From Branchiostoma floridae (taxonomy: Eukaryota; Chordata; Leptocardii; Amphioxiformes; Branchiostomatidae), in assembly GCF_000003815.2 (NCBI RefSeq), contig NC_049989.1, positions 564,752 through 628,751 of the forward strand: 64,000 nt of DNA, in the 5' to 3' direction. Made by a program: the position numbers and the translations under genes. Position 1 is the first letter of the stretch, and each line of letters starts with the position of its first letter. Below are positions 17,725 to 45,000 of this stretch, piece after piece. The notes beneath the pieces are model-generated. The model had not been told where the DNA came from and did not search any database. It saw only the letters and a program-made list of their open reading frames with translations.

Positions 17725-17855
17725 AGTGGGAAACTTAGATTTGGATGTCTCAGCAAATCGCAGATGAGAGGACGGCAGCTTTGGGCACCGAACGTGTCTT
17801 ACCAAGGACTTTGTGTAGTGTCAGTGGTCTCACCTACCATTCCGGTTCTACCAGA

Positions 17856-18512
17856 GTATGAATATTGATAAACTGCAAAAGTTACAAAACAGGGTGGCCA
17901 GGGTAATTCTAGGCTGTGACAGGTACACCTCTACTTCAACCCTTCTAGACTCACTTGAATGGCTCCCAGTAGCTGAACTGCACAAAAAAGCCAAAGCTAC
18001 TCTTGTCTACAAGGCCCTGAACGGTTTGACCCCTCACTACATCACTGCAATGTTCACACAGCTATCTCATGTCCACACACACAATACCTGCCTCAGGGCA
18101 CAAGGCGGTCTTCAGTTGCCCAAGACTAAATTGGAACACATCAAAACAGCCAGAACGCTGGCGACTTTCAAGAACCTTTATGCACTTAACATTGATATGC
18201 AAATTCAATCCTGATTTTAAATTTGACTTCTTTTTGTTATGTTTCCTGTGTTATGTCACGTTAAGGCTAAACTTTTGGTTCACTCGTTTTGGCAGTATTA
18301 TTTTATGTTATCTAAGTTAAATCTGACTTTGTACAATCTTTATGTAATTTGGTTTCATAGAACGTTATGTATGATTATGTTATTGACGTTGCATTGGTTC
18401 TGTTGAACTTAATGTATGATTTATGTTCGGGGTTCTCCCCCCAGGGGGCTTTGAAAAACGCCATCAGGCGACATGCCTTACCCTGGTTAAATAAAGAATA
18501 AACAAACAAACA
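17856..18512 (+). mobile_element. 3' end of a CR1/L2-like LINE (5'-truncated)
   Basis: An open stretch from 17858 to 18214 encodes a typical C-terminal end of a LINE reverse transcriptase: an LQKLQNRVARVILG start, then LEWLPV and an ALNGLTPHYI segment. It is followed by a 3' UTR ending in aataaagaataaacaaac and a short AAAC tail. It starts abruptly, as expected for incomplete reverse transcription. The element at 2.1-4.7 kb lacks exactly this part, so the two are fragments of similar elements but not one copy. It lies about 130 bp 5' of the presumed first ATP-grasp exon. Confidence 0.85.
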
Positions 18513-18860
18513 ATTCCAATACTAGTCGCTAGGGGGGCCAAACTTATTTCTTCTTCTACACAAGAGCTACCTAACACTAAAAACTCTTGACCATAGCTTG
18601 TTGAGAACAGGAAGTTCCACTGCAGTGCCAGAGTAAGCCACTAGGGGGCCCTAAAACTGAACATTTCCAGTTTTTGTCACACCCCACCAACACCCCAAGC
18701 ATGAAACCAATCCATCCAGCGGTTATCTTGTTGATACACAAATGCTACTGAATACATAACCTCCATGAATATTTCATGGATAACTACAGGCTAGTCACAT
18801 GAGTGGAACCATTGAAACCAATGCACTGCTTGTTCGAAACACACATAGAAACAATGTAAA
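18513..18860. repeat. Dispersed repeat fragment between the LINE tail and SELENOM
   Basis: This holds the phrases gtcgctaggggggcc, aacaggaagttccactgcagt and caatccatccagcggttatc. They also occur in the repeats at 5.7-6.1 kb, 34.3 kb and 54.1-54.4 kb. No gene is seen. Confidence 0.55.
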
Positions 18861-18886
18861 ACAAGCTCTTAAGTCTGGAATGTGAC

Positions 18887-18892
18887 TTTATT
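18887..18892 (-). terminator. Polyadenylation signal AATAAA
   Basis: On the minus strand this reads AATAAA (TTTATT on the plus strand). It lies about 43 bases downstream of the SECIS element in the direction of transcription. It is a plausible mRNA end for selenoprotein M. Confidence 0.6.
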
Positions 18893-18934
18893 GAAGGTCA
18901 CTGCAGCCGACTTCTTGTATTGTAGGATGCCCTC

Positions 18935-19005
18935 GAGCTCCTGGCTAATTTTCTCCACCGCCAACCGGGAACTTTCAGTTGACAGTTTCATGTGCGCCTC
19001 AGCTC
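18935..19005 (-). ncRNA. SECIS element (type I)
   Basis: On the minus strand the conserved AUGA (18991-18988) is followed by an 11-bp helix (ACUGUCAACUG with CGGUUGGCGGU) and an apical loop opening with AAA. The 3' side returns to GGAG at 18956-18953. G and A of UGA face A and G of GGAG, giving the tandem G.A pairs of the SECIS quartet. There are 12 bases between UGA and the loop AA, the canonical spacing. A lower helix closes GAGCU (19005-19001) with AGCUC (18939-18935). With the in-frame UGA upstream, this would recruit SBP2 and direct selenocysteine insertion. Confidence 0.87.
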
Positions 19006-20717
19006 CAGGACAGCCACAGGTAAGGGTCAGCAGGTGACATCAGTTTCACTGGAACTGGAAAACATTAAAGAAAACGTCTGATTGGCAAAACTCACTTTGT
19101 AAAATACTCTGCAAAGGCATTCAAACTGCATTGTATGTGAAGTGATCTTGATGTTGTATTACCTCAGTTAACTTCTATGTAAATATTTAATATATGTACA
19201 AATATCAATAACTAAACAATATAATTCAGCAGACAAAGTGTAAATCACTTAATATCCTGAAATTGTATCATTTCTCCTCACCATTATAACATTAACTAAC
19301 ATTGCCATCAAATGGTTATCATACAATGCGCAACATGTAATTATAGTTAACACAGTCTTGGACCATATTCAAGTTTACATGTGCAGATGAGTTTATGGTA
19401 GATGGTGTCAAGGCATTCCTAACACTTGTCAACATATATAACAGGTGTCAATCCATTTCCAAGTCAAAGACCACCTGCTATCACTTGGTCACAAGAAGTT
19501 TTAACTGTCTTATTCAACATTGTGATTTGCTAGATTAAGTTTGTCATATACTTTTTACTAGATTGAGAACTGGTGGTCATTAGTATTACAAGTAATGACA
19601 TGAATATCTCTTTTAAGCAGGTATTTCCCATGGACTGTACCAAACTGAGCACATGTACAAATTGGCATCCATTTGTTAACAAAAACTACAATTTTTTTGA
19701 AAATTAAAACAAAAATGCAATTGGCAAAATGGCACAAATGGATACAAAATGACCTAAAGTATTCAACACTAAAGTCAATAAACATATATCATTACAGATA
19801 GATGTACATAAGAGTGTAAGCTGGTATATGGTTTGTGTCTGTTTGTTTTTGGTCGTTTCTGTCACTACATGTACAAATTTAAAGGGGAAAAAAGCTTCTG
19901 GTCACAAGAACGAATCAAGCAAAAACTCACAGATCTATCAAACAGTGCTTTGAACAGTGGGTGTTTCCTTAGTGAATGTGTAGTAGATATTGTACTTCTT
20001 TGTTTAGTTTATTAAATTACTTGTTCTTGAGCAATGTACATGTATATCATTCTGTATAATTATATGGTGTTGAAAATACCAGAGCCTGATGCTATTATGT
20101 TAATTTTGGCAACAGAATTTCTTACAATAATTCCACATCCAATGCTAAACGTTTCAAATATTTACCAAGTGTACAAACCACATTGTCCCTTCAAAATTCA
20201 AGGCTTTCTGGAATCAATGGGGTTGGCTAGGCTAGTGGGCTGGGCTGGGCTGGTACCCAAGTGCAACATAGATAGTTTGAACTTCCCACCGGTCCACCAA
20301 AAAAAAATCAGATTATGGTCGATAGACATGTAGCCTGGATACTGGACCCCAGCCTGATCTGAGAAACATATGCCAGGAAGTTTGAACTGTCCGCGATGTC
20401 GCTGTGTGACCCCAGTCCGGCCGAAGAGGAGCAGATCACACAATAGATATTTCTGAAATTGGGCTGGGTTCAATACTAGTAGGTGACTAGGTGTGCACGA
20501 GGTGACTAGCCCAGCGCACTAGCCTAGCCCACCCCATCGATTACGGAAACCCCAAAATTCAAACTTCACAGTTCTGAGTTCCAGGCATGCCGAATATTCA
20601 AATTTTCCACCCCTCTGAGGTAGCTTGGAATATTCCACACCCTGGAACTCAAAATTGAAATCTACCATTGAAGTAGGTTCTCAAGATAGTGAAAGGATGC
20701 TTCTCACATAAAAGAGT

Positions 20718-23700
20718 TTATAGTTCGCCTTTTCCAACATCCTCTGCGGCATCAGCATCTTCCTTCATGGTGAAGCCTTTCTCAAGAAGGAGATCTGTGA
20801 TTTCGACTGTTTTCATTGGTGCTAGGTCAATCACCTGGGCAAGGAAAATAACAATGAAAAACTTCAGGCATGATGGGTGTTGGCTATTGAAACAATTCTC
20901 CCATCTTACAACACCTCGCATTATTCAGCAAGATAAGAGGGGATAATGTGGCAATACAGTCATTAGGGCCTGGAGTATGACAAACAGCACTGTATATAGT
21001 TTATTCTAATTTTTCACCCCGGTCCTATGAAGTGAGGGAAGCCATGTAAAGATCCTTTCCCAGGGGCAAAATGTCATGGATGACAAGCAACCTCTTACTA
21101 GGGCCCCCTTTCCACTAGACGGCGATCGCGCCACGCTCTTACGGCGACCTAAGACGAATATGTGTAACCTTCCATTTCATACTGAGAATGTCATACAAAA
21201 TGTAAAAGTGTGACTGTAAAGACAACAAAAGTGTTAAAAGGTTTGTTTTCTTCTATACAATTCGTTGTCCGATCCATCAAATTCTAGGTTGCAGAGAGAG
21301 CACGACGAGAGAGCCATCCTAGTGGAAAGGGGGTATAATGGGCTTTATGCCACACAATTCCACACGTGACTGGCTCCCAAGTCCCAACCGTAGTCTGGAG
21401 ATGGTTGGAAGAGGTTGCAAAGGCATCAGTTAGCTATGGGCATCTCTCTCCTGACATTATAACATTTATCTTGCACATAAACAATCATCACACTCAAGTT
21501 TTGACATGAATGTAACATTAGCCTACGACTACCAAGCCCCTCCTGATAGTGGATAGAATTCTAATCCTAGTAACTTAATCATACTGTATATGGCTGTCTT
21601 AGATTGCTGTTAGTACATAGTAATGCTGTCTTGGATTGCCGTATACAATCCACCCCGACAGTGTACTGTACATGTACCTCCTTACCTCCAGCTGTTCTCC
21701 ATCCTGATCTAACAACAGTAGCTCAGGACTCTTCCCAGGAATGGCCTTGTACTCCACACGGTGACTGGTATAGTTTGTTAAAGACTTGCCACTTTTCACT
21801 ATGCAGTCCTTGATACAATCCCTCACACTGAGTCACAGCCATGACCTCACTCTAACTGCTTGGTTAGAGATTTCTGAGGATTTCTGTTTTAGTTATCATT
21901 TCAGTACTGATCCTCAACTGTTGTTGAAGGCTGTCCCATGTAAAAAGTGCCAGGGTGATATAGTGGTGTGAAATAATAAAAAAATCAATATCTAAGGCCA
22001 CACCAATTTAATTTCTTGGTTCACGGATTTTTTCATAAAAAATATGGAGCGAGAGGGCGAAATAAAAATAAAAATTATAAAATGGTTGGGGTAAAGGTTA
22101 GGGCTAATCCAAAACATAAAGACTAAAAAGTTTTCAGCTTGAAAAAAGTACAAAAACACTATTACTGTATGGTAACAACACCTGTACCCACACTTTAAGG
22201 AGCTTATAATATAAAGGCCCATTTGTTACACCAGAAAGTTGGTGAATGGTTTCATTAATGGTGAAAATTTACTGAGTGGTTTGTTTGTTTGTTTGTTTGT
22301 TTGTGTGGTAATTTTTATTTTTTATTTTTATTTTCCCAAAAAATAGAAGCGAGAAAATCCGTTAACCAAGAAATTAAATTGGTGTGGCCTAAGGGGTGTG
22401 GTTGCAATTTGATTATTACAGATTTCAAGGATACATACAATGTTCTCTGAAAAGTAAAATATGGTGACTCTCAGTCTCATGATTCTTTTTTCTCAATTAT
22501 TTATGTTGACGTCTGTCTAAGTCACTTAATGTCACTCACTAAGGAACTATTGTGAAAGGATACAATTGAGGTAGCACCTGTTTGATGAACTTCTTCACCT
22601 GTACGCACATGTACATGGAAATACAACAAACAAACATACATGTACAAACATAGTTTACAATATCATGCTGAGGATAGTGTAGTTGACCAAATTAAGAACA
22701 GCTGTGACAAGATAGTGAGAAATGAACGTGAACTCTGCATAACTTGGGTTTTCGGAAAAAACCTGTCCAGTTACTCGGAAGTTAAGCAATGTGCGGTCCG
22801 GACAGTACTTGGAAGACCGGATGCTGTAGACTGACCAAGCATTCAAAGAATTCGTCTTTCGGAAGGGACATTAAACGGGGGTCCCATGCTCGAGGAGGTG
22901 CCTTGACCACGTAAATCAGCCTTATTACTGAAATATTGGATATCTACTGGTTGGAAATACACCAAATATCATTATTATAATACAAATGTACTAGTTGATG
23001 CATATTCCTATAGAATTGGTGACCCTAAGGTGCAACTAAATAGGAGATCCATGCACATGAAGAATATTCTGTCAAATGTGAAGTACACAATCAACACCTA
23101 TCTGAATTACACCCATATATGATTGTCCATCAATTTCTGGTTGTTAAATAGTCACTAAGTGGCAATATATTACAATGACTGACTTTGAGCAGTTTTCTTT
23201 AAATGATTAGTTTGTAGCACATATTTTGAGAGCCGGTCTGTTTAAATCCTGGTTAATGTAGAAATTAAAATGACGATGAGAAAGTTTTTAACATCAACAC
23301 TACACAACTACCTACCTACCTCACTCACTACCTACCTATCTAGTCTTGCACTAGTACACAATGTTATAAGATTCTACATATTTTACAATACACTTTATAC
23401 AGTAATGTTGAGGCAGCATTTTTCAAACCCTAGTACAAGTTGTGAGCTATATTTTTTTAGAAACAATTTGTGTTTTACTTGCAAAATCATGCGCTAATTG
23501 CATCAGGCTAATTGCATTATACAGTCACAAAGACTGAAAGTAGGAGATAGTTTTTATATGATGCACAGAAGTAACAATGATGGATAATCTTTGTTAACTT
23601 TTGTATGCCATTGTGTCACACTATAAGTTGTTGTTTCTGTACACTAGATAAAAAAAATGTTGTTGCATAGCTTACAACTTAAACTCCTCTTTTTAGACAG

Positions 23701-25825
23701 GGGTTTAACCGCTGTCGGGACTGGATAGTTTTTTTCCCAAAAAACGAAATTTGAAGGGGGGGGGGGGGGGAGTGACCCTTAACCCCCCAAAAGAAACACT
23801 GTTTACTACAACTGGAAAATGGTGGAATTAAAGGATTTCTTCAATTTTTCTTCAACGAATTACTTTAAGCAATTTTTTTCAAAAGCATCTGTTCCGGAAA
23901 ACAGGAGGACTCCCCAAATTTCAGTTGTCCATTTGGGGATCTTTTTCTTACATGCAAATGCAATACTACTATTTTTACTAGTGGTCTATTTACAGTAAGT
24001 TACAGGCCACTCCCCATATGTGTGATGATGTGGCAGATCCTGTATGGACAATTGTGCCTATGTGCTCAGCAGTGGGCCTAGACTCTAGAGGAAACAATCA
24101 ATTCCAACAAGATACTCTGCTTGACCTGTCTGTAACATCACCAGCTTCATTATGTTCACACAACAATAAGGCAGGTAGCATATTAATATCATATAATATC
24201 ATAACATTGATATTAGCCAATATTGTATAGAAGCTTGTCAAATTTATGTTGAAATTCAGGTAAAAAGAGAAAGCTCTCCACACCTCTGGGAGCTTGTTCA
24301 AGCGTCATCCACTGCAACTCTGAAACAGAGCAAAAAAAGTTATACTCAGTCATAGTGTCATGAGGGACATTCTTTTATACCAGCTATGAAATCTTACAAG
24401 TCTGATTTACATGTAACATTAACTAGATAATTTGGTGGATGGTAGTGTTCGAAAGGAGTACATTGGCTGTTCTAAGGAAGCCAGGACTAGGGTTGGGTAC
24501 CAGTACAGAAAATTCAGGTCCAGGTCCGGTTCAGGTCCAAAGGATCAGGTCCAGGTCCGGACCTGAACCTGGACCTGATTCAGTATGACTCATACCAATG
24601 GTCCATTTCACTACAAAGAAATCTGTTTGGTGGAGTATTAGACTTACACTGGCGTTTTAAAATACTACAACGCTAACTGCACCTGTACGATTGACTGTAC
24701 ACCTTGGTAGAAATTACTATAAACTCTACTCTACTTCAGTCTTGTCATTTTCTTCCAACTGCAAGCGCCAAAACGTGTGAATGCCTGATAAAATGATATG
24801 TTAATTATCTAATCGGTCCAACATCCGGTCAACCTAATTTTTTCAGGTCCGGTTTTTCTGGACCGGTCCAATAAGAAAAACGGGTTTTGTACCGGTACGC
24901 TGTACCGATACCCAGCCCTAGCCAGGACAGAAATTCTTTGGTTTGGTTCATTGAGATCTCCATAAGTGATATGTCACTACTCTTCCTTAACTTCAGATCA
25001 AAAATATTACAAAAGATTTCAATGGCAAAAACGTTACATAACAAATTGAGATTTTGAAATAACAGAAAACAAACATAGAGTGAACTCACAATGACTGATA
25101 ACCATAACATAAGTAAAGGTAATATAAAACAAGATCCAATCATTACTCTAATTTATCCTCTACTGTCACGTACCAACTGTATGCTAAACTTCAGACTTTG
25201 GTCTTAGATTATGATGTGGGCTGTAATTTGAGCTGTTTTGATGATAATCTTCTGGCATGGTCTTTATAAAAATCACTAACATTCTAACGTTAATAATAGT
25301 GGTAATATTAATTCCAATACGCGCCACCATGATTGATACCTTTGATGTCCTGTTGGATTGAGAGGGAAACAAGAAAGGCAACATTTTCGAGAAAACGCTG
25401 CAATGTTTCACTCCAGTTATCGGCTACTCGCACACAAATTATACTGGCAGTACCATAATAGGCTCGCCACTGGCAAAAAAAAAGGTTCGTCCCTAGGCGT
25501 TGCCAAAAAAAAAAGACAGAAAAACTTATGTTCAAGAAGAAGGAAAGAACGTTTGCAACAGCGAAAAAATATGTTTCTCTAGGTTCAAACATGCTGCGTC
25601 AAACATAATGAAACTTTTGGTGGACGTGGCCACACCACAAGTTCTGCAGAACACCTGCTTCTCACCTATTCTCATGTGCGTGCGTTATGAATAAGTAACG
25701 TTATTTTTTGTTATCTGTGTATTAGACCTTACCTCTACCCTGGCGCTGTGGTATTCAGTAGCCGCATGCGTCTGCTGGGGCAGCACGGCTAGGCAGACCG
25801 CGAGAAGTATCATCCACGTCCGCAT
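20718..25825 (-). CDS. SELENOM: Selenoprotein M, thioredoxin-fold ER selenoprotein, 5 exons
   Basis: Coding exons on the minus strand are 25825-25733, 24319-24284, 22598-22578, about 21808-21686 and 20834-20718, all in phase 0. The product is about 121-129 aa, depending on the exon-4 acceptor (21808 or 21784). Exon 1 encodes a signal peptide (MRTWMILLAVCLAVLP then QQTHA) ending in ARVE. Exon 2 opens SCSG, then in-frame UGA, then RLNKLPE, matching the redox CxxU motif and its flank in selenoprotein M. Exon 3 gives VKKFIKQ, exon 4 includes IPGKSPELLLLD, and exon 5 ends GKGEL, resembling an ER-retention tail. Selenoprotein M is an ER-lumen oxidoreductase. The cysteine-rich N-terminal domain of the relative SELENOF is absent. 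A SECIS hairpin downstream confirms the recoding. Exon 4's start is the weak point, with purine-rich acceptors. Confidence 0.93.
21992..22394. mobile_element. MITE-like element, family 4
   Basis: The ends are long inverted repeats: ctaaggccacaccaatttaa with atttcttggttcacgg on the left, mirrored at the right by ccgttaaccaagaaatt and ttggtgtggcctaagg. The terminal match is about 40 bp. The interior is AT-rich with no coding sequence and holds a GTTT microsatellite at about 22280-22304. A lone end of the same family appears at 54725-54768. It sits in intron 3 of SELENOM. Confidence 0.75.
22770..22915 (+). mobile_element. 5S-rRNA-derived SINE-like element
   Basis: The stretch ggaagttaagcaatgtgcgg, then agtacttgg and ccggatgctgtagactg, follows the 3' half of 5S rRNA (internal promoter region through the terminal GGTGCTGTAGGC part) with substitutions. 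Downstream, cggaagggacattaaacggg and gggtccc resemble the body of the tRNA-derived SINE at 9.1 kb. This points to a SINE with a 5S-type head and a shared central domain. It is not a functional 5S gene. The ends are not resolved. Confidence 0.6.
24305..24307 (-). other. SELENOM: In-frame UGA selenocysteine codon
   Basis: The minus strand reads AGT TGC AGT GGA TGA CGC TTG AAC right after a tttcag acceptor, giving S-C-S-G-Sec-R-L-N. The UGA stands where the C-x-x-U redox site of selenoprotein M is expected. The frame stays open on both sides across well-formed introns. A standard gene caller would cut the protein here. Confidence 0.93.
24488..24920. mobile_element. MITE-like element, family 1, copy in SELENOM intron 1
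   Basis: It starts ctagggttgggtaccagtac and ends cggtacgctgtaccgatac then ccagcccta, the inverse. The interior again has ggtccaggtccgg stacks and the aaatctgtttggtggagta segment seen in the other copies. It is non-coding. Confidence 0.8.
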
Positions 25826-26388
25826 GATTGCACCTCACCTGTACAGACTTACCTGTACCTGTACCTGTACCACGGCAGCCCTCCAAACGGAAATGCCAGC
25901 TGTCAACCGGAAACGGAAACTACGGGTACGGAACGTTACAAATCTTTATAGGGGTCGGTGTTTCTTTTTAAAATTTATTAGATATCCATCAGATTCATTA
26001 AATGGCATTTTGCTCTTGAAAATTGATAAATATTAAAAAGACTTTAACTTTCGAGCAACATTTGATGCTCAGAAAATATAGGGTTAGCATTATAAATTAC
26101 ACAAAGCACAAGCACCACATTCACGACAGGTTAACGTTTAACTTAACTTTGCGAGGGTCAACCAGTGTACCTTTTTTTTTAATTTTACATTTTAGTTCGA
26201 TAAATTGATTCTAACTTGAAAAGAAAAATACTACTTAGCTAGATAGACTGTTTTCATACTATATATATTTTTAAATGACATTTTTATAAAAGAAAATTAT
26301 AACTAATTTTCTGTTTCCCCCCTACAATGTTGCAAATATGGAACAGCTCATCCTTCCCATCATGCAGTTGGATTAAGCATCAAGCATC
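25826..26388. promoter_or_regulatory. Bidirectional intergenic region between SELENOM and PRPF19
   Basis: Only 563 bp separate the start codons of two divergent genes, so both promoters and 5' leaders must lie here unless there are further upstream exons. It contains overlapping acctgtacctgtacc units next to the SELENOM start (about 25838-25870) and an AT-rich middle with a TATATATA run near 26263. No CpG-rich block or clear core-promoter motif can be defended. Confidence 0.45.
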
Positions 26389-29300
26389 ATGGCGCTCATC
26401 TGTTCAAGTAAGTCTCTCACTTTTGTCAACTTTCTTGCAATTTTTCTGCATGATACATCCATTATAAGTAGTAGAGCAAGCTGGCTAATTGTCTTTGATA
26501 TTTTATACTAATTGTCAGTACTATATTTACAAGGACATCGTAGTATTTGCTGATACCTGACGTGCTTGGTTTAGTCACGTTGTGATCACGTTTCCCAGTA
26601 ACATTTAGTTAGGTAGGGCTTTGTACCTAAATACCTGTGCCTGTAGTCCTGTACTATGCCTATAAGATTTTTTTTGGTACAGGTGTAACCTGTGCCTCTA
26701 CCTAAACAAACTATATCACTATTGAACACCACTTTTTGAGACTAAAGATATTAAGTAATTCCAAATCAAACATGACAATTGTGATCATTGTGCAGTTGAA
26801 AAGCACCTCCTTGTGAAAACTAAGAAAACTTTGTTTTGATGTTCGAATATGTAAATCCTCATAAATAGATGACAATTTCTCACTAGATAAGACAGTTGGC
26901 TACATTTATAACAGATAATTGATCAAACTTGTTTAGGTACAGGTAAAGGTCCGGACCTGTATGTATCTAAACCAGTGTACCTGTATTTAAAATTTCTTCT
27001 AAGGTACACAGCTCTAGTTGTCAGAGAATGGACCTCTCCCATTACAGTCAAAGTAAAACTGAAAATAAATTCATATAAAATACACAAAACAGTTACATGT
27101 ACTAGTATGGTATGAATACATAGTCATACCAATTGGGGTAATATTACAAAGGGCAATAGATTATGCATTCCTATGTAATTGATATTTGACCATAACTGTC
27201 ACGTTTCTGAAGTTAGTGTAACAGAATAAAGTAGATTCCATGGTATATGTTCATATGTGTTGCTCCTTTTTATTGCTGTCCCTTGAAGTTTCCAATGAAG
27301 TCCCGGAGCACCCAGTGGTCTCACCCATCTCCGGACATGTGTTTGAGCGGCGGCTGATTGAGAAGTTCGTGTCGGAGAATGGAACAGACCCAATGAATGG
27401 AGAGCCTCTCAGTTCTGACCAACTGGTAGAGATAAAAGGTGAGTTTTTATTGGTCAGCCACTTAGCAACAGAGTGAAGTAAGAGTATTTGGCTTGTCTGT
27501 TTGTGTGTGTTTCTGCTGTAACTGTTTAAGTTGCACCAAGCAAAAAGTGGTTGCAATGTGCAAGTGGGTATTTTACACGCTGCATTAGGCCATACCAACT
27601 TAAATTTATGGGTGACATCCCCAGGACACCCTAAAAACTAATGTGCATGGGCATTAGATTCTGCAAAAAATATGTTTCTAAACCTCAGGACTAAACATCC
27701 AGACCAGTCTTTCCCAGGAACACACATTCATGCAGTCGTTTGCTATTGGGGTAGGTACTCCTTAATAATACATGAATAAGGGTTAAACTTAAAGTCTTCA
27801 ATATAGGCGTGATTATTTGGCGAAGGTATGTGTTCCTGGCACTCTAGTTTCAATGTCATGTGGACTAACGGTACCGGTGTACTGATATGTCTTTATTCTC
27901 AGTGCAACCCACAGTGAAGCCGCGCCCACCGTCAGCCACCAGTATCCCAGCCATTCTGAAGGCCTTACAAGATGAGTGGGATGCCTGCATGCTGCACAGT
28001 TTCACACTCAGGCAGCAACTGCAGACTACTCGCCAAGGTAGGAGCCGTACTTCACATTCTTCACACACCACACAGTCTCACATTCTTCACACCACACACA
28101 GTCTCACATTCTTCACACCACACACAGTCTCACATTCTTCACAGCACACACAGTCTCACATTCTTCACAGCACACACAGTCTCACATTCTTCACACCACT
28201 CACAGTCTCACATTCTTCACACCACACACAGTCTCACATTCTTCACAGCACACACAGTCTCACATTCTTCACAATTTTTTTATGAGGACGGCCTCTGGTT
28301 GCGTTCAAGCCGTCCAAAACGAAATGAGACCGTCATTGGACGGGTGGACGCCCCTCTGGCGGAAACACTGGTCTCACATTCTCCACACCACACACAGTCT
28401 CACATTCTTCACACCACACACAGTCTCACATTCTTCACACCACTCACAGTCTCACATTCTTCACACCACACACAGTCTCACATTCTCCACACCACACACA
28501 GTCTCACATTCTTCACACCACACACAGTCTCACATTCTCCACACCACACACAGTCTCACATTCTTCACACCACACAGTCTCACATTCTCCACACCACACA
28601 CAGTCTCACATTCTTCACACCACACACAGTCTCACATTCTTCACACCACACACAGTCTCACATTCTCCACACCACACACAGTCTCACATTCTCCACACCA
28701 CACACAGTCTCATACCACTCTTTGTTTTACCAGCTGCATTGTAACCAGCTCCAATTTTGGTATGTTTTCTTGTTTGTAGAGTTGTCTCACGCCCTGTACC
28801 AGCATGATGCAGCATGTCGTGTGATCGCACGCCTGACTAAAGAGGTGACGGCAGCGCGTGAGGCCCTGGCAACCCTGAAGCCCCAGGCTGGGATCGCTGT
28901 CCCCGCCCCTTCAGTCCCCGCAGTGGCGCAGCCTGCAGCTGCAGCAGAACCCATGGAGATGGCTGCAGAACCCGGGGAGGAAGGCATGACTGAAGAGATC
29001 ATACAGAAGGTTGGATGTATTACTGTTTCCAGTAGGGAATACACTGATTTCGCTGGTGTGTTATTCTTACCTTTTCTGTCATTTTGGCAATGCCTCAGGG
29101 CAAACCTATTGTGTGCAAGTAGCTTGACAAAAGGCAAATTACTGGCAAACACTTAAATTTTTCTCAGGGCTACAAATAACTAAATTGAAAGCCTTAGAAA
29201 TTTGAGATAAATGGGAGTGTCACAATTGCATTCATTGTTTTACTTCAATCACTGGCATAAATGGCAGTGAAAATGACTTCTATAAGTTAGCATAACGGCC

Positions 29301-32300
29301 CTGGCTTCTACTTCAGTCTTGTGCTTTTTGCTAAATGCCCACTATTAGATTGGCTGCCTGCATGCATGGGACCCTTCTGGGTGGTGCAGAGAAGCAATGG
29401 ACCACTTGAGTGCCCTTTTTCCCCATCAAGTATTGCGCAATTCCAGCTATCTATGCCGAGAAGTTGTGATGTTTATTTCGACTGATGAAATACTTAGCAC
29501 AATACTGTGACTATTAGTTATCTTGTAGCAAAATAGAAGAAAGAAAAAACTCTGACGTTGCCTTAGCAGCACAGCTTACGTTTAGAAGGGGAGGGGGCTT
29601 ACTCTCCAAACAGATGTTGATAAGAAAAATCGTGACCTTTTCATTATGTGTCCAGTCATTCAATACCTTCTACCACCATTGTATTCTCACAATTATTTCA
29701 ACTGCGTTGCTAGCTTTTTAAAAAGCATTTGTTGTTTCTCCATAGCTGCAAGACAAGGCAGCAGTGCTGACTGCAGACAGGAAGAAGCGTGGTAAGAAGG
29801 TACCAGAAGAACTGATGCCAGCAGAAAACTTGTCCAACTTCAAGCAACAGGCATCACATCCGGTAAGCTGCCTTTTGGGGGAAGGTCTTGGGGCTCGTGT
29901 GATTGTGATTGTTCATTAAGTCTTGTCAGTCTGGATGGTTAAACATGACAGTAGTCGTGTGGACTGAAATTGTGAACATCTGGCATAAATGTTATTAAGA
30001 GCTTTCAATTCAGTCCTTATTTGAATGTGTCAGGTGAATATAAAATTTGTATGGTGCAAAGAACTTGACTTGAGCCCTGGCAAGTTGACGAAATTTCAAA
30101 CAAATTTGTGATCTAGTAAAATTCAATCTGAAATTTCATCATTGTGTAGCGATTGCAGGACAATTGTAACTTTTCTGTTTACAACATCATGATTTGTATC
30201 TAAATCTACTTGTGTTTTTTCCTTTGTGTTTAAGTACAATCAGGGCTCAAAATACCCTTTTTGGTCAACTTGTTACTTGCACCAGAAGAAAACTACTTGC
30301 ACAACTTAAGATAGTGGACTAAATATTTAGTATTAAACCTTTATCTCCTCTTCTGAAAATGTGCAAATGAACATGTCAGGCTGAGTGAAAGGGGATACAT
30401 GAAGACCACATATTTGGATATTTGTTTTTCCATGGTGCATTTTATTTTTGGTTTTGAATGGTACAAACAGTTTCATAAAGAGGTGAATTTAGGCTTGTTG
30501 AAAAACAAATTAATGTCTACAACTCGATAAGATTCATTCTTTTTATTAGATTTCTTCTGAACACTTCGAGTGACATCCATTACTGGAATAAAGTGTTATC
30601 ACAACCCAATACAAATACATGTAACTGGAAAAAACAGTTTAACATATCAAAGTCACTACTTGTATGCGAATGTGACTCACATGCAAATCAAGGTAAGACA
30701 ACACCATAGGAACTGTAAGCATTGTAGAGATGGAATTGTGTTTAGATATTGTTTACCTTGATGTCTAACCTCCATGAACAAATTTGGGCTTTTTTTTATT
30801 CAGGGTTATTTTACCTTTCATAGATTAGCCTTATTGAACTATAGTCATGTACCAGTAAATGCCATACTTTGTGCCTTGTACAATTATTGGTAATGTTACG
30901 ATGCCCCTGTTCAGGGTCTGCACAGTGCCAGTATCCCAGGGATCCTCTCTATGGACATCCACACTGCAGACACCTCCAAGATTCTCACAGGTAAGCACAA
31001 CTCCACAGTGTGGGATCCCCAGTACTGTCAGGGACATCACTGCTGTAGAGAAAGTCCAGTTTAGTGCCGCCAATTGGATTTGCCACAGTTTCATTCCTTT
31101 AAAAGGAGATTTTATTAAATTAAAAGCTTTTATAGCACAGAAACAGACCAGATATTCAGGGGACACCTTCTGTAACACGTTTGTTGTGGTGGATTTAGTA
31201 CTTGTCACGAAAGGGCCGATATTCTGTGGGAATCCCTGAGGCAAGTTCTCCAAAAAGACAACCTGACAAGTAGATTTTGTATGTTTTGTCAACCTCCATT
31301 TATGAGGCTTTCCATCAATGAGTTTTCTTGAAATTTAGGATTCATAAATGACAGACCGATCTGAACATATACGTAACAAGATGATGAAGATCTGTGCAGC
31401 ATGGACAACTCACCAGAGTGAGCTTTAATGCCGCTGCGCACTCCTGATGATACATGTTCCTTATCTTTAGACAAAAAGAACTGCTGTCTCATTTATCTTA
31501 GTCATGTTGTGTAGAAAATAAAGGGTATGTACTAATTTTGTGTGTATAAAACAGACCTGTTGGTAGCTGTGACCAGTAGAGTGTTGGTTCAGGAGCGGAT
31601 ACTATTTTCTACACAGGTGGTGCCGACAAAAATGCCGTCGTGTTTGACAAAGAGAGCGAACAGGTGGTCTGCATCCTCAAGGGTCACCGACAGAAGGTTA
31701 ACAATGTGCTGTACCATCCTTCAGAGGTAAGGTTAACAATGTGCTGTACCATCCTTCAGAGGTAAGGTTAACAATGTGCTGTACCATCCTTCAGAGGTAA
31801 GGTTAACAATGTGCTGTACCATCCTTCAGAGGTAAGGTTAACAATGTGCTGTACCATCCTTCAGAGGTAAGGTTAACAATGTGCTGTACCATCCTTCAGA
31901 GGTAAGGTTAACAATGTGCTGTACCATCCTTCAGAGGTAAGGTTAACAATGTGCTGTACCATCCTTCAGAGGTAAGGTTAACAATGTGCTGTACCATCCT
32001 TCAGAGGTAAGGTTAACAATGTGCTGTACCATCCTTCAGAGGTAAGGTTAACAATGTGCTGTACCATCCTTCAGAGGTAAGGTTAACAATGTGCTGTACC
32101 ATCCTTCAGAGGTAAGGTTAACAATGTGCTGTACCATCCTTCAGAGGTAAGGTTAACAATGTGCTGTACCATCCTTCAGAGGTAAGGTTAACAATGTGCT
32201 GTACCATCCTTCAGAGGTAAGGTTAACAATGTGCTGTACCATCCTTCAGAGGTAAGGTTAACAATGTGCTGTACCATCCTTCAGAGGTAAGGTTAACAAT

Positions 32301-35300
32301 GTGCTGTACCATCCTTCAGAGGTAAGGAATGGTGATTTATGAACAGAGCTATTTATGATACTAAAAGTATTCACACAGGTACCTATATAATGATGAAGTT
32401 TGCTATAATTTGAGATTCACCATGATTGATTAGTTGAGAATTAAGGAGTTCACCAATGCTTTTTCTGTAGAACCTGGTGTTCACAGCATCACCAGACTCA
32501 ACCATTCGAGTATGGGGGGTGCCTAGTGGACAGTGCAGTAACATCATCCAGGCACATGATGGCGCTGTTACCGGCATCTCACTTCATGCCACAGGAGACT
32601 TCCTTCTGTCAGCCTCAGAGGACCAGGTAAGATGATGTTTCTGTTACAAACAAACAGCATCAATGTTTGTATCCTCAATTTGTACTTTGCAACAGTAGGA
32701 TTAAATTCCACATGGAGGTGAAAATGTCTAAGTGACATCCTTGTGGTTAGAAATCTAGAGTAGAGAAGACATTTAGCAATTTCTCTATGCCAAGATCTGT
32801 TCTGCAAACTAAGTTCAGCGAGATAACCTCCCTCAGAAAACCTAGTTCAGATTAGTGTGGGCTGAACGCCAGCCAGAGTCCACAATGCCCAGGTCAGTAT
32901 GGCAAGGAAATGTAAGTTTTATCTGGCCTGGCGTTGATTCGCGATTTTCCACATGGGCTAAGGTTCTCTATGTAAGGGAAATGAGTTAGCCAGGAGAAGG
33001 AGTTACACTGCCACTAAAGCTTGCTTGATTTCCAAACCATGTCCTAGTGGTCACCTCTTCAAGCCAGTTACTTTTTCTCGGTTCTGAAAAGATATCTCAT
33101 AGATGGAAGTATTAAGCAACCTTCCCAAGATGACCACCCGTCCAATGAGGACACAGTCATGTTTTATGGTTACCGGACAGGGTCCCAATCCCTGCTAATG
33201 GCAGACACCAATTTTCCAAATTTGGGTGGGCACCATTACAGTGTACCGAAACAAAACCGATTTTTCTTGTTGAACCGGTCCAGAAAAAACAGACGTGAAC
33301 CAGTGGACCGGAAGATTCGAAATAAAAGACATTATACAGGCAAGTAGACGAGAGTTGATAGTCATTTTTACCAAGTTAGGCCACAGCAAGTAGATTTTGT
33401 GGATGATATCTGCACGCTCATTAATTTTGGCCTCATTTCAGAAAAAGTTTTTTCTTTAAGGTAGACCAAAATGGGTAGATAGGTTGTGTAGTAAACTAAT
33501 CATTGTATGTAGAATTGACACTAGATAGGTAGCCTTGGCCTTGACACTTGCAGGATAGTTGTAAGAAAGGCCCCAATATGAAAACCATAAGTGTAGTTGA
33601 CAACATGATTGGTGATGTACCAGTCTACAACACTTTCTTAAACTAGTTCGCTTCTTCAATACAGGAATGAATGCCTTGTTGGTTGTGATGCCACATTTTG
33701 CCACTTCAATTATATTCAATATTTATTGTGTCGACTTTTTTTTGCCAACTTGTTTTTTTACCCTTCTTGTTTTTATTGTTGCCCTATCTCATTATTTTGG
33801 CAGTTTGCAGAGGAAAGTAGAATAGTCCTGCTAGTCTTGCTGCCATTTTAGTGTTTTGTCGAGCACAGTTTTGAAATTCAGAAATGGCAGTCCAATCTTA
33901 ACTTATTCCCAAACAAAATGATCCAGATTTGTACAGCATGTCCAGAATGGGCTATATTGACAATAAACACTTCCAATGACATGCCACTGAATTTTTTTGT
34001 TCCCAGTTAGTCGTCTTGAGCAGGTTCGACTGAACTTAGAGATGAGATATTTCCAGTTGTTGACTACGTGTTTGTGTTTCAGTTCTGGGCGTTCTCAGAC
34101 GTGCGGACAGGTCGTGTGCTGACTAAGGTCACTGATGAGTCCAGTAAGACATGTAAGTGTCTGTCTTGTGGAGACTTAAACTAGAATTCCACGAACCCAT
34201 ACCTTGGCCAAATTATTTTACCTTTACAACTGGTGTATTAAATGTGTTTGTCATGTCTTTTCAAGGTCTTATGAAGATCTACCCACATACTAAATATCAA
34301 CATAATCCATCCAGGCGTTCTCCAGTTATGCTGGTCTTCTACAAACACACACACACATACAAACGCTACTGAAAATATAACCTTGGCGAAGAAATAACTA
34401 CTGGGTGTGCTACAAACTGTCTCATTGTGTGCTTAAGTAATGTTGGCAGCTACAGAGTAGCCTTGCTGGTCAAGCTTAAAGACAATGTCCGGAATAGATT
34501 GCTAATACTGATAAACTGATACATGTACATGTATGGTCTTATTGATATCAGTATGTACTCCTACTGCTCGTCTGTTGTTGTTCTGACAATGGAAGTTAAT
34601 ATTGACCTTGAAGCAGCACATTATCCTGTTGTGGAATTCAAAGTTGGTTAAAGTAAGCTTTAATTGATCACTGTCAATCCACACCTTCCCCACTCCCTCT
34701 CACTCACTTTCGGTTTTTGTCTGTTGTTCCTCCCCAGCGCTGACTTGTGCCCAGTTTCACCCTGATGGCCTGATCTTCGGCACGGGGACAGACGACAGTC
34801 AGGTCAAGATCTGGGACCTGAAGGAGAGAACTAACGTCGCCAACTTTCCAGGTAAAGACTTTCACTAAGTTGTCACATTTCCACTTGGACAGTACTTCAA
34901 GCAACTAGTCCTTGACCAAATCCTACCCCGCTGCTATTCCTAAAAGGTGTACACCGTACACTTCCATATAAAAGGAAAGATCGGCCTACAGGCTGCTTTT
35001 CATTGAGGTCATAAGGGAAGAGATCAGGGTCAGATGAAATATAACAGAGATACATGTTACGTCCTAATTGGCTTGTTCTTTCTTTATTTTCAGGACACTC
35101 TGGTCCCATCACTGCCATTGCCTTTTCTGAGAACGGCTACTACCTGGCTACTGCTGCAGATGACTCCATGGTTAAGCTCTGGGATCTGAGGAAACTGAAA
35201 AACTTCAAGACTATTTCACTGGATGAGCGTTATGAGGACAGATACGAGGTTTGTAGTCCAATCAAATAGCTCATGGAACCATTCTAACTTTGATGAAGGG

Positions 35301-36774
35301 CTAATGACCCGCCCCGAGGTGTATATGGTGTCATAACGCCTCACCAGGTCCTTTGCTATAACCACCGAATAAAACCACCGAGTGAGCGAACCAAGGAATA
35401 TGTTGGTCATTAACGTTATTATCATATAGCCCAACAAGCATTAAAGCACAATTTGTCAGTAGAAAACTGCTATCTGGAGAGCATTTTTAATGGGCCAGTA
35501 CATAGAAATGACAGATGTTCCCAGGAGGATGATACAATAAATACTTTATAAGTTGCATACAGAATAAAGACATGTAAGTTTCTAACAGGCTCTCTTTTCC
35601 ACCCTCAGATCAAGTCCCTGTGTTTTGACCAGAGTGGTACCTACTTGGCTGTGGCAGGCAGTGATATCAGGTTAGTCACTGCCTTGTTTTATGTATCACA
35701 CATCTTATGATGTCATCATCATGGGTTACCCCCATATAACCCCGCGAGGGGCAAAGTAGGGGGGGGAGCTGAGGTCCCGGGTTAGGGCGGGCAGCCCTCC
35801 TGCCTGGCGCGGAAGTTCTCAACTGAAATATATGTTAGATGGTACAGCATGTATCTCATCTTGTTACCTGCTTGAGAACACTCCTGGTCCCAAGGAGATT
35901 TCTGTACTTAGTACTTTTAACCAAAGATGGCCATGTGCACAAACAAAGTGTAGAATTTACTTTAGTATTACCCTATCTTTAATACAACAGGATAGTGCAC
36001 ATGTAACTCCAATAAAGTATGTTTGTCAAGTACACATGCAGCATTTGTAAAGTGAAACTAATTTTGTACCATTTAATAAAACCAAACAAACTATCCCCTA
36101 AAAGAATAAGATTTAAGGGTTTACTGTTTGTTCTTTGCATGGTTATTCAATAATTTTTACAACTGTCATGACACCCACGGGTTGATGTAGAATGTAGACA
36201 ACTTTTTTCTTCTTTGTCAATCTTTTTCGTATCAGTTTTTGTGCGTCCACAGGATGACAGACAGTAATGTCTAAAGCTAAGGGCACAACCCACTTAACGT
36301 GCAATTTGTCCGTACGTTTTTTGGAGGCCACGTATTTCTGAAAATGTTCAGGCTGTCCAGGGCAGGCACGTCGTCCGTACTGGCTCGTACGGGGGGCGAA
36401 TCCGCAGCCCGATGGCACACAAAGTTTTGCCTGCACGTAAAATTCTACAGTGTGTCTGCGTGCTCCAAAATCCGAGTTTTTACGGAGGCGGCACTTACCA
36501 CTTACGGATCCCAAAAGATTTCCCACGTTTCGGCACATAGACCTACAGCGGGTTGTGCCCTTAGCTTACTACTAACTACACCTGTGTAGTGTGAAGCCCA
36601 CTCACACCTCCCCTTTCTGGCCTGTCCTGTAGGGTGTATCTGTGTAAGCAGTGGCAGGAGCTGGTGGTGATGAAGGAACACACGGCACCGGTCACCTCCA
36701 TCAAGTTTGGGAACCACGCAGCCTTCCTGGCCTCCACCAGCATGGACCGCTCCCTCAAGATCTATGGGCTATAG
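26389..36774 (+). CDS. PRPF19: Pre-mRNA-processing factor 19, U-box E3 ubiquitin ligase, 13 exons
   Basis: Coding exons are 26389-26407, 27289-27438, 27903-28037, 28780-29009, 29746-29862, 30915-30990, 31617-31726, 32471-32626, 34083-34152, 34738-34851, 35094-35248, 35609-35670 and 36633-36774. They total 1536 nt and give 511 aa; vertebrate Prp19 has about 504. The start MALICS leads into the U-box (about residues 1-70: [28 protein letters not shown]). A CDC5L-binding coiled-coil region follows in exons 3-4 ([34 protein letters not shown]). WD40 repeats fill about residue 217 to the end (IKIWDLKE-like, [33 protein letters not shown]), finishing SLKIYGL. Prp19 is the core of the NineTeen complex, which ubiquitinates spliceosome proteins and stabilises U4/U6.U5, and also acts in DNA repair. 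The repeated donor of intron 7 is described separately. Confidence 0.98.
26600..27015. repeat. GTACAGGT-rich inverted repeat in PRPF19 intron 1
   Basis: The left part has gtacctaaatacctgtgcc and ggtacaggtgtaacctgtgc, and the right part has the inverse-type ttaggtacaggtaaaggtcc. A similar phrase (aggtacagtccaggtac with acctaaacccctgtacc) occurs at 59340-59392. It looks like another degraded terminal-inverted-repeat element; the boundaries are uncertain. Confidence 0.4.
28053..28714 (+). repeat. 26-bp minisatellite in PRPF19 intron 3, about 22 units in two blocks
   Basis: The unit is cacattcttc plus acaccacacacagtct. About 9 units occupy 28053-28275 and about 13 occupy 28372-28714, with cc/gc and tt/tc variants. 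A non-repetitive piece of about 96 bp splits the array (28276-28371). Because 26 is not a multiple of three and the unit has no stop, the array gives a long spurious open frame with a His/Ser/Thr-rich pattern. It lies wholly inside an intron with good splice sites. Confidence 0.95.
31696..32325 (+). repeat. 35-bp tandem array of the exon-7 3' end plus 5' splice site, 18 copies
   Basis: Units start every 35 bases from 31696 to 32291, and all 18 look identical. Each carries 31 bases of exon 7 (ggttaacaatgtgctg .. ccttcagag) followed by the donor bases GTAA, and the next unit supplies GG. The array therefore presents 18 perfect CAGAG|GTAAGG donors in a row; the last, after 32320, leads into unique intron. 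Only the first donor at 31726 keeps the frame. Read-through meets TAA at the end of the second unit. Confidence 0.98.
33165..33350. mobile_element. Partial family 1 MITE in PRPF19 intron 8
   Basis: The text gtgtaccgaaacaaaaccga, then ttcttgttgaaccggtccag and gtggaccgga, is the family 1 right-end interior in inverse orientation. The usual outer end is altered (tttgggtgggcaccattac). Only about 180 bp of the element remain. Confidence 0.5.
35295..35432. mobile_element. Short family 2 MITE copy in PRPF19 intron 11
   Basis: It begins ggctaatgacccgccccgag and ends attatcatatagcc, the family 2 ends in inverse orientation to the 16.3-16.8 kb copy. The middle has complementary ataaccaccgaataaaacc stretches. 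About 140 bp remain, so it is an internally deleted copy. Confidence 0.55.
36274..36567. mobile_element. MITE-like element, family 3, in PRPF19 intron 12
   Basis: It opens aaagctaagggcacaaccc and closes gggttgtgcccttagctt, a near-perfect inverted repeat of about 18 bp. The core has cgtacg-type palindromes and no coding sequence. The same ends bound the shorter copy at 15950-16068. Confidence 0.7.
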
Positions 36775-38640
36775 ATGGTCCAGAGAAAATAATTCAAGCT
36801 ACCACTGAATGTAGAAACTCGCTGAAAGACAGGTTGTAGATAGATGGGTTGTTTACACATGACATTAATCTCCAAGCAGATCCTACGGTGGCATAAGATA
36901 GTATCAAAAGCTGGCAGAGGAGTGAAACCGGCTTAGGAGTGAGTTTCGCTACCGGCAAATGGACACCTCTTGACTGACCAGTTTGGCCAGTTTGGTACTA
37001 TCTTATGCCATTGTAGGATCTGCTTGGAGATTAACATGACATCACAGCTGCCATCCATGTTGGGTGATCCTTAAGAGTCAGGCTTCAAAATGCGTTTGAT
37101 GTCAGAATTATCATTACATTAATTCAAGTTTACCTGGCAACATTCCGATGTAACATCCAATATGATGAATATCAACAATGACGCAAGTAAACAATTGATG
37201 GTGAACAACATCTGCACCATAGTTAGGTAAGGACAAACACATGGAATAGCTGATGTCCTTATTTCTGACTTTGACATTCTGAGTAAAACCCACTCCAGAG
37301 AAATGACTGTACTTGGTTAAGCAGAGGATCAGCTTCTATCTATGGCAACATTGCAGATGTGTACACCCCTCTCACACAAACACAAACCTGCAAACAGAAA
37401 AATTGTTTTTCCAAAGGTGTCACAACTTCAACAAGACAGATTCCAGACTTAACCCCTTCACATACCATATCCCCACACCTCACTAACATTGGGTGAAGTA
37501 AAAATGAAATTCATACAGGATATGTATAGACTGTTGCTACCAGTAACAACAACAGTACATATAACATGATTTCATACAGTCTTTTGTGGCCCATGATTAC
37601 AAGATTCCCTTTTGTATACATCCATCCATCAGTGCCATATCATCCATATAGGCAGTATACATGGACTTGTGTAGTATACAGCTTGGGGAACTTTGCAGCT
37701 GGTTGAAAAGATGATGATTGATAGCAAGAGTAACCTGAGAGTCACAACAATAATGCCTTCTCTTTCAGTCTAGATGGTATCAGGTGGACCAGATATATGA
37801 ACTGTAGAATCTGATATATGGCAGATGGGGTAGATTGTAGACCAGTAAAGCCTAAGGGGTTATACTTCGGAGAAGTACCAGGGAAACCACTGTGTATTTG
37901 TGTTTGTATTTACACTTTCTGTTTCACATTTTGGATGGATGGCATTTAAGTGTGTTACTTTGTAATAAGTTTTTCATTTTACAGTTTAGTACATATTTTC
38001 TATACCTTATGTAGAATAACCTATTTCCATTGGATAAATCAGTGATTTAGTGAAAATTGTTGATCTTCTACTGTACCATTGCCTCAACATAAAAATATGC
38101 TTTGTGGGTACTCCTGTAACAATTACGTTTTGAAGAGTGGAGAGTAGTAAATTTGTAGGATTCTACCACTAAAATGATGACCTTCCAAATCGACAGATTT
38201 TTGTAGTGACAGTACATTGTACTTCTTTGTAAGAATTGTCTGTTAAGAAGTCCAGAAGATTAGTGCTTTGCCCTTAGGCATGCCATTATTGGATAAGGTC
38301 TCAAAGTACTCATTACTTCTATTCCTTTTTCCGCATAGGTTTCTAATAAACATAGCAAGGAAAAGAGACTTACTTTTTAGTGTTTTATTGGGAAGATGTT
38401 ATATACAGTGTATGATATTGCCACTATATTCTCTACTAAATCTTATATCCTTTTATCTTTCTTGTAGCCATTTACGAACTGGAAAATATGTTTTTGAAAT
38501 GGACATAAGGTCCTGTCTGCATGTTACCGAAGGCTGCTTGGAAAATTATTTAGCCCCGTGGTATAAATGGTAACTCTGTATTTTTGTTTGATTCTCTATA
38601 GAATGAAATAATGTCATTCAATTAAAACTGTTAAAACATA
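36775..38640 (+). other. PRPF19: Probable PRPF19 3' untranslated region
   Basis: No gene-like frame lies between the PRPF19 stop and the end of this block. Two candidate polyadenylation signals are AATAAA at 38345-38350 and ATTAAA at 38621-38626. The UTR would be 1.6-1.9 kb and would contain the 168-bp inverted-repeat element at 36866-37033. The true end needs RNA data. Confidence 0.5.
36866..37033. mobile_element. 168-bp hairpin MITE with 9-bp target-site duplication in the PRPF19 3' UTR
   Basis: The ends are 40-bp inverted repeats starting TAATCTCCAAGCAGATCC with about three mismatches (for example CGGTGG against CAATGG). The element is flanked by ACATGACAT at 36857-36865 and again at 37034-37042, a 9-bp duplication. 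There is no coding sequence. A 9-bp duplication is typical of Mutator-like transposons, but I do not assign the superfamily on that alone. Transcribed, it would fold into a long hairpin. Confidence 0.85.
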
Positions 38641-42023: not shown

Positions 42024-45000
42024 CTGGCAACCATAGTCTGGTTGTCAGTAACCATGGCAACCTCTGACACAACAGAAAACATGTCCTCCATCTTGTAATG
42101 CCAAGTCAGATCGATGATGTAGGACCTGTTCTCTGTCATGTGGGAGGTTACCGGTGTTGCTGCCCCTGCTGGCCTTTTCCCACACACTTACCAAACTTTT
42201 GTAACCCAAACACAAGGGTAAAAAGACTTGGTAAACCCATGAGAAGAAGCCAACAGGAACAGCAGATGTAGGGGAAACAAACTTTCTCAAAAACGACACC
42301 ACTGAACGGCTGCTTAATGTACATAGATGTCTGCTGCAGTCTTCTCTTTCGGGTTGTCTTGTGAACTTCTTTCCTCTGGTGCCCTGCACCAGCTGTGGTG
42401 TACACAAGCAAGGATGTTTCCTGAGAAATGACAAAGAGTGGTGGGTTAGGTATGCAGCTGGCATTGCATATATAGTGTGGCTAGTAACATCATGTATACA
42501 ATGCAAGAATCAAAAGCTATTTATTTTAGGTAAAAGTGGTCAAAAGTTGTCTGATTAGCCCTGAATCCACCCTATTCTAGGTCCAGTTCTCTCCTCTGAT
42601 CGCAACCAGCTGGACTAATTATAAAACTTTTTAACTTTTTCAAAAGTAACAGTCAACTATCATGGCACCCTCATGACCAACTCCCATAGATGAACTTCCT
42701 CATACCTCTGTCACATTTGGCGAAAATAGATCGGACGGCAATTCTGCGGCAATCATGCAAGCCTAAGCTTATAATAATAACTTTATTGCACAACAATTGT
42801 ACAAGGTACTAAGCATGGCTTATGTGTGACAGGGACAGTTTTCAGGTGAAAAATACGCGCAATCCTCTGTCGATCTTAAATATGGCCGATCTTGCATCAA
42901 TAGGCCAGAAGATCGTGGATAATGTGACGGGTATTAGGACTACTTAGTGACTTCCAACCTGGGAGAGGGCAACTATGTTTGACAGGCTTAAGATGTGTAA
43001 TAACTTTAAACTTACCAACAAACACCAATCCAAAACGATCCTTCCCTTGCTGTCACCACGACTACCAATCAGAGGACGACTTGGTGAGCGAGCGTTGTGA
43101 TCTGGCCCGTGATGTAGGTCGTACCTGGACAGTCTGGTAGCTTTCTTTGTGACTGGATGGTAGATATTCTCACTCTCATACAGCATGGGAACCTGCAGAA
43201 AGATAGTGTACCAGATAATCAGACATGTCCTTTTGCTATTCCATAGACTTTGTTCGCGAAGCCAAACCGAGAGAGAGATATTCATATATAAAGAAATGAC
43301 ATGGTTTGTTTGCTACAAACACGGCGTTCAAACACCCTGCCCGCCACCGTACAACATGGGTAGGACACATATCCGACCCCAAAGGAAAACCAAACACCAA
43401 AGCTACTATAGCCATCTTTAACCAAATCGACTATGTACTATGCAGATCAACAAGCAAACCACTGTTGAAAGACTCACGTACCTACGGAGGCACAGACCTC
43501 AACTCAGACCACAAACCAGTCGTCACCCGTATAAGAATGGAAAATATATGCCTGGTTCACAAAAAACACAAAAGACAGAAACGCCAGGTCAAATACAACC
43601 TGGAAAGGCTCAATGACCCTAGCACACAAACCCAATACAAGAAAAGCCTAGCAAACCAGCTGTCCAAAACAGAAGAAGACAGCGACCCGAACACAACCTT
43701 AACTGCCATCCTTAAATGCATGGAAACATCAGCTGCAGGCACGCTAGGGGTACTGAAAAACACAAACAACAGGCAGAGGCATCAAACAGAAGACCCAGTC
43801 ATCATGAAACTGTCAGAAAAGCAAAAGGCCCTGAGGTTGCGCATCTACCAAACTGGTCAAAGTGAGGACAGAAAACCCGCACGAAAAGAACGCAACAAAA
43901 TCCTCAAAGAAATTAGTAAACATCTGAAAAACCAAGCAATCGAGAAAGCAAATGCACTGGCAAACGAAATCACAGACGACAGCCGGAAAATGTTCAAGGC
44001 AGCCCGTGCCCTCAAAGTTTGTGGCCCTCCACCTTCCCTCTCAGTGCACAATACCCATGGACAATTCATCTCAACTGATAAGGGTAAAGCAGATGCCATC
44101 AGGGAATGGTTCAAGGAACAGTTTACAGACCCAGAAGGGGACCACTTAGAACCTTTCCAAGGAGAACCCAGACCCCTGAAAGACCCTATAAAAGAAGATG
44201 AAATTAAGAAAGCCATAAAGTCACTAAGCAACGGACGCTCACCCGGTCCCGATGGAGTTAGCAACGAACTCTTTAAGCATGGGAGCGATGCCATAGCACC
44301 ATATATTGCTGCTATCATCAACGTTGCCTTTGAGCGCCACCATCCTATTGAAGCATTGGGACAAGGAACCCTCATTGCTTTACCTAAACCCAAAAAGCCA
44401 CCAGGACCTCCTGCAAACTTACGTCCCATTGTCCTCCTGAACAGCATACGTAAGATACTGTCTACTGTCACACTACATCGCATCAGGGACAAAATAGATG
44501 CTTTCACAGGACCATACCAAAGTGGCTTTAAGAGAGGGCGCAGTTGCGCGGACATAGTCTGGGCCCAGCGCATGCTTACTTCAGTGGTTATGTCTAAACA
44601 CTGGGACTTCTACAAGATGGGGATAGATATGTCAAGGGCATTTGACACAATCAAAAGGTCAAAGATCCTAGATGTGCTGTACCAAGCAGGGTGCAATGAA
44701 GATGAACTGCGCCTTGTGAGAATACTTTTAGCAGGTACTAAACTGAATGTCCGTGTTGGATCAACCTACTCAGCGGACTTCGAAACAACAATAGGGTCTC
44801 CACAAGGGGACAGTCTCTCCCCAGTACTGTTCACCTGCTACCTGGCATCAGCATTAGCATCAATAAGATCGCACTCCACAAGGCCCAACCCTCCAGTATC
44901 ACGTCTGGGCATTCCATTGGAGATGGAATATGCAGATGACGTCGACTTCATCGACGAGGAGAAGGCCANNNNNNNNNNNNNNNNNNNNNNNNNNNNNNNN

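Follow-up and report, generated by a model that had tools for sequence, protein, structure and literature searches.

The end of exon 7 of the core splicing gene PRPF19 is repeated 18 times without a single difference in Branchiostoma floridae, and each copy brings its own 5' splice site. We read this array as a recently expanded "mirage" minisatellite, meaning tandem copies of a unit that includes an exon-intron boundary, with donor 1 in use and the array near neutral, and give this reading a probability of about 70 %. All positions refer to the window, the whole stretch of 64,000 nucleotides that was analysed, in which the repeat is laid out as follows:

31694..32327, + strand: perfect 35-bp tandem array of 18.1 copies across the exon 7/intron 7 boundary (Tandem Repeats Finder, self-comparison)
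31694..31697, + strand: AAGG, left copy of a 4-bp end homology
32324..32327, + strand: AAGG, the same homology at the right end

Tandem Repeats Finder gave a period of 35, 18.1 copies, 100 % matches and no indels for 31694-32327, and a self-comparison of the window shifted by 35 resulted in a single run without mismatch from 31694 to 32327. The two methods agree on the 18 perfect 35-bp copies at the end of exon 7 that a preliminary description of this DNA had claimed. On the + strand there are 18 head-to-tail occurrences of the 35-mer, and a 30-base core of it was not found on the - strand of the window. One unit consists of the final 31 bases of PRPF19 exon 7 followed by GTAA, and the last exon base of each copy lies at 31726 + 35k (k = 0-17). 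The exon-intron boundary is thus contained in the repeat, as placed by collinearity with PRPF19 in the PDB. A perfect period across 634 bp rules out a chance origin of the array.

The gene model around the array comprises these features:

27289..36774, + strand: PRPF19 gene, modelled coding exons 2-13 (tblastn, exon joining, PDB alignment)
31617..31726, + strand: PRPF19 exon 7, with a length of 110 nt when donor 1 is its end (gene model; ungapped PDB collinearity across the exon 7/8 joint)
31727..32470, + strand: intron 7, 744 nt in all and 149 nt when counted from donor 18, which leaves out the 17 extra units (gene model)
32471..32626, + strand: PRPF19 exon 8, with its acceptor outside the array (gene model)

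A tblastn search with an approximate human PRPF19 sequence placed exons along 27276-36771 of the + strand. Joining 12 exons at GT/AG sites produced a single 504-residue open frame ending in a stop (27289-36774). Its product matched PRPF19 in the PDB (5mqf_G, residues 8-504, E 7e-249), an entry that we take to be the human protein, the alignment being gapped in the exon 4 linker and by four residues where exon 11 ends. Exons 7 and 8 searched alone against PDB PRPF19 gave equal-length spans (88 on 88), and the exon 7/8 joint (PSE/NLVF) is ungapped when donor 1 is taken. Since this joint aligns without gaps, donor 1 would be the one that gives normal PRPF19, and we infer its use from protein collinearity; the gene looks intact if donor 1 is used. 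The earlier identification of the gene as PRPF19 stands on the PDB match of both the exons and the full model. The name "exon 7" assumes one short upstream coding exon for the first residues, and pattern searches of 20000-27280 and 15000-27280 found no such exon.

Without the 17 extra units, intron 7 (149 nt) would be the shortest in the model, whose ten other introns measure 242 to 1456 nt. Two further observations concern the model. Exon 11 as modelled ends (35237-35248) with four residues more than PDB PRPF19, followed by a donor GAG/GTTTGT with weak U1 pairing (-7.7 kcal/mol). Intron 3 holds a second, diverged minisatellite at 28052-28712 (26-bp unit, about 25 copies, 78 % matches), which starts 14 nt past the exon 3 donor, has a different stretch embedded within it and carries an acceptor-like CACACAG in its unit.

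The splice donors and the stop codon of the array are located as follows:

31727..31732, + strand: donor 1 (GTAAGG), the sole donor giving full-length PRPF19 (gene model)
31762..32327, + strand: donors 2-18, one per 35 bp with the G of donor k at 31727 + 35(k - 1), all 17 leading to premature stops
31763..31765, + strand: TAA inside the GTAA of unit 2, closing the read-through frame in the products of donors 3-18

As the preliminary description had proposed, only donor 1 keeps the protein, and donors 2-18 all give premature stops in the gene model. Its statement that read-through meets a TAA at the end of unit 2 is correct for donors 3-18, the products of which stop at codon 284 of the model (TAA 31763-31765), and has to be refined for donor 2, whose product is shifted in frame, avoids this TAA and stops at codon 348. 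Between the premature stops of donors 2-18 and the last exon junction downstream of them there are 364 to 1116 nt; by the usual rule, nonsense-mediated decay is expected for stops that far upstream of it. In the model, use of donor 18 instead of donor 1 would give an exon 7 of 705 nt rather than 110 nt and leave 149 nt of the 744-nt intron 7.

The donors are also equal, as had been stated, with the fairly strong signal GAG/GTAAGG present in 18 of 18 copies. Scoring of the + strand of 27000-36800 by a base-frequency table returned 22 sites with at least the score of the exon 7 donor, which are the 18 of the array, three true donors (exons 2, 6 and 8) and a site at 30693. The U1 pairing of the exon 7 donor (-10.1 kcal/mol) is the fourth strongest among 11 model donors.

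In local folds, the probability that the 9-base donor is unpaired was 0.006 for donor 1, 0.001 for donors 2-16, 0.016 for donor 17 and 0.004 for donor 18. In the global fold, donor 18 was the least paired (mean unpaired 0.34), compared to 0.29 for donor 1 and 0.24-0.26 for donors 2-17. Predicted folding would bury all 18 donors about equally, donors 17 and 18 being marginally more open, and since the donors are similarly buried, it would not explain a preference for donor 1. RNA structure was also rejected as a donor selector in view of the array having no special stability: of 200 arrays built from shuffled units, 146 folded at least as well as a 10-unit array. Exon definition favours the 110-nt exon. 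Among equal competing donors, the site nearest to the acceptor can win, and this rule would favour donor 18 and make the array allele harmful, which counts against the neutral reading.

The decay-type stops of donors 2-18 are also the starting point for a regulatory interpretation, in which donor competition would set the share of degraded PRPF19 transcripts and copy number or spliceosome activity would tune the level. The strength of the exon 7 donor (-10.1 kcal/mol, fourth of 11) is in line with such a switch, as is the use of poison exons for feedback by some splicing factors, described in the cited excerpts (e.g. PMC11357089, PMC6547761). However, the perfect copies would indicate a recent expansion rather than a conserved device, amphioxus mirages are reported in the cited sections without disturbance of splicing (PMC3087553, PMC3902484), and among the matches listed for literature on PRPF19 and decay, few mention PRPF19, each once or twice. 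We consider a switch of this kind very improbable. The self-tuning of PRPF19 through nonsense-mediated decay suggested in the preliminary description finds no support apart from the decay substrates that the later donors would give, and amphioxus arrays of the same anatomy are reported as splicing-neutral. Very improbable as well is a copy-number brake, in which U1 snRNP would be spread over 18 equal donors, the share of donor 1 would fall with the number of units and with spliceosome activity, and decay would close a PRPF19 feedback loop tunable by alleles.

The identity of all 18 copies leaves the copy count without an internal anchor, and an assembly error therefore retains some probability. 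The true locus might have one or a few copies, the 35 bp having been looped many times by assembly or gap-filling software. We regard this as unlikely, at roughly one chance in eight, a value that was judged and not computed. The assembly does contain two 100-N gaps (9405-9504 and 44969-45068), but the array has none. Moreover, 11 of the 12 other tandem-repeat rows are imperfect (73-98 % matches), the exception being a 26-bp GTTT run, so that the assembly does not generally flatten repeats. Published cases, as far as the cited portions go, fall on both sides: the BflGb6 mirage of one haplotype was apparently misassembled in the B. floridae draft (PMC3087553), and the unit counts of lancelet PGBD5 differ between two assemblies (2 vs 7, 3 vs 6), but re-sequencing data for PGBD5 are said to speak strongly against assembly error (PMC3902484). 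In fission yeast, the non-identity of units was the authors' argument against assembly error (PMC3629103, in the part cited), whereas the PRPF19 units are identical.

Besides the donor, the unit contains TTAAC and a pyrimidine-rich CCATCCTTCAG. With GTAAGG as a donor, TTAAC as a branch-like motif and TTCAG as an acceptor-like one in each unit, splices within the array could seed a new intron or a step-wise (recursive) removal; that each unit could in principle also act as an acceptor is a low-probability prediction. The pyrimidine share before the internal CAG (0.71) falls within the range of the 12 model acceptors (0.59-0.88). Intron gain from mirages has been proposed for amphioxus globins (PMC3087553), and both intron gain by duplication of AGGT segments (PMC4974935) and introns of tandem repeats in fission yeast (PMC3629103) are in print, in each case according to the sections cited. 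On the other hand, a splice to the internal CAG would leave two extra bases (AG) and shift the frame, an intron of a single unit would be very short at 33-35 nt, and the array does not include the true acceptor at 32470. We hold that such intron formation inside the array is very improbable.

For the preferred reading, a recently expanded minisatellite, we propose that slippage or unequal exchange duplicated a 35-bp segment bounded by AAGG, made up of 31 bases from exon 7 and 4 from intron 7, and that the array grew to 18 copies, which expansion or conversion kept identical. Copy 1 would remain the true exon end, with copies 2-18 sitting in an intron 7 lengthened from 149 to 744 nt. Because the acceptor of this intron (32470) is outside the array, the duplication did not create intron 7. 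Splicing would mostly join donor 1, and with it the 110-nt exon, to the acceptor at 32470 and remove the array, whereas occasional use of later donors would yield premature-stop transcripts that are degraded. Judging from the amphioxus cases, the array would be near neutral and its copy number probably differs between alleles.

AAGG on both sides of the single-copy segment, already reported in the preliminary description, was seen in the sequence, and slippage between these copies as the seed of the array is consistent with it. As a proof, however, the homology falls short: at the array's spacing, end homology of at least 4 bp occurred at 3.6 % of 200,000 random window positions (the array's own included), so that AAGG is suggestive only and fits slippage or microhomology-driven duplication without proving either. 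A hairpin of the unit DNA was rejected as the trigger of slippage: z was 0.09 on one strand and -0.03 on the other for a single unit, and 0.50 for two units together. With zero changes in 634 bp, the array would be no older than about 0.5 to 5 million generations; this loose bound assumes mutation rates of 1e-8 to 1e-9 and is weaker still if the copies were homogenised.

Searches beyond the locus gave no match for the array unit in a viral contig collection and none for a degenerate pattern of the unit peptide in a prokaryote contig collection. Pattern searches for PRPF19 relatives returned 19 matches in the prokaryote contigs and 4 in the viral contigs, none of them a relative; in collections of prokaryotes and viruses, such negatives carry little weight. 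Rfam had no match in the window at the gathering score. Elsewhere in the window, an 84-bp unit with a GC-rich core is repeated four times at 16902-17237 (98 % matches). This repeat was rejected as a second exon-boundary array, one 21-residue frame of it having no PDB match and no gene being placed there by eye. A 163-bp tandem array (3.3 copies, 91 % matches) lies at 62519-63047. The neighbouring frame at 7937-8479 (- strand) matched neither the PDB nor a Pfam family. A frame with a reverse transcriptase domain at 43300-44967 (Pfam RVT_1, E 6e-17), cut by the 100-N gap at 44969-45068, is presumably a non-LTR retrotransposon. The frames at 2216-4542 we take, by eye, to be retroelement-like; the first of them shows weak PHD-type finger matches below the Pfam cut-offs, and its GDISTNPGP resembles a 2A ribosome-skipping peptide. 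No Pfam family was found for the frame at 3290-4279.

With many equal, evenly spaced donors in a core splicing gene, of which the first alone yields the protein, the locus would be a natural experiment on donor choice. If the array is real and variable, its alleles could measure the contributions of exon length, acceptor distance and U1 occupancy to the choice among identical sites. A spliceosome gene thereby joins the list of mirage-like loci, and the model illustrates that an intron can grow fivefold from its donor end with the reading frame kept.

Repeats that carry splice signals are known from several systems. Intron gain by duplication of AGGT segments has been described (PMC4974935), as have gained introns of tandem repeats in fission yeast, for which the proto-splice site is given as AGGC (PMC3629103). 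Examples of tandem-duplication introns in the cited sections of these papers are the potato RdRp gene and SPOG_01682 and SOCG_00815 of Schizosaccharomyces with 24-nt units (PMC4974935, PMC3629103). The PRPF19 unit likewise contains splice signals. However, the new introns in those parts of the published accounts were born with the repeats, whereas in PRPF19 an existing intron was lengthened at its donor end. The two splice sites of intron 7 do not both come from repeats, its acceptor at 32470 lying outside the array.

A human counterpart is the IFI6 (6-16) minisatellite, reportedly a subject of work by Turri et al. in 1995. Splicing there also uses the donors of two repeat units further downstream, giving three mRNA species (PMC4526556, cited portion). 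Units carry donors in both genes. The IFI6 donor variants described there encode different isoforms, in contrast to PRPF19, in which every later donor breaks the frame.

The closest relatives are found in amphioxus itself. Mirages are in print for globin, Adh, troponin C and PGBD5 genes, those of PGBD5 and troponin C having been added by the second of the two papers, which also reports PGBD5 unit counts differing between two assemblies (PMC3087553, PMC3902484, as excerpted). According to the first, the Adh3 mirage occurs in two Branchiostoma species with units of 10-72 bp and somatic instability, BflGb6 has 6 units versus 3 on two haplotypes with units 81-100 % identical, many mirage units carry AG/GT signals as possible cryptic sites, and the Adh3 data together with RT-PCR on globins suggest that regular splicing is undisturbed by mirages (PMC3087553, cited sections). 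Like the repeats described there for Adh3, BflGb6, BflGb9, troponin C and PGBD5, the PRPF19 repeat spans an exon-intron boundary, and splice signals are copied, in many units of the known mirages and in all 18 of PRPF19. The gene is other than those with mirages in these excerpts. The array also differs in size, with 18 units compared to 2 to 7 in the globin and PGBD5 cases excerpted, and in perfection, its units being all identical, unlike the 81-100 % of BflGb6 and the imperfect units of PGBD5. The PRPF19 array is a striking case of a known type of repeat.
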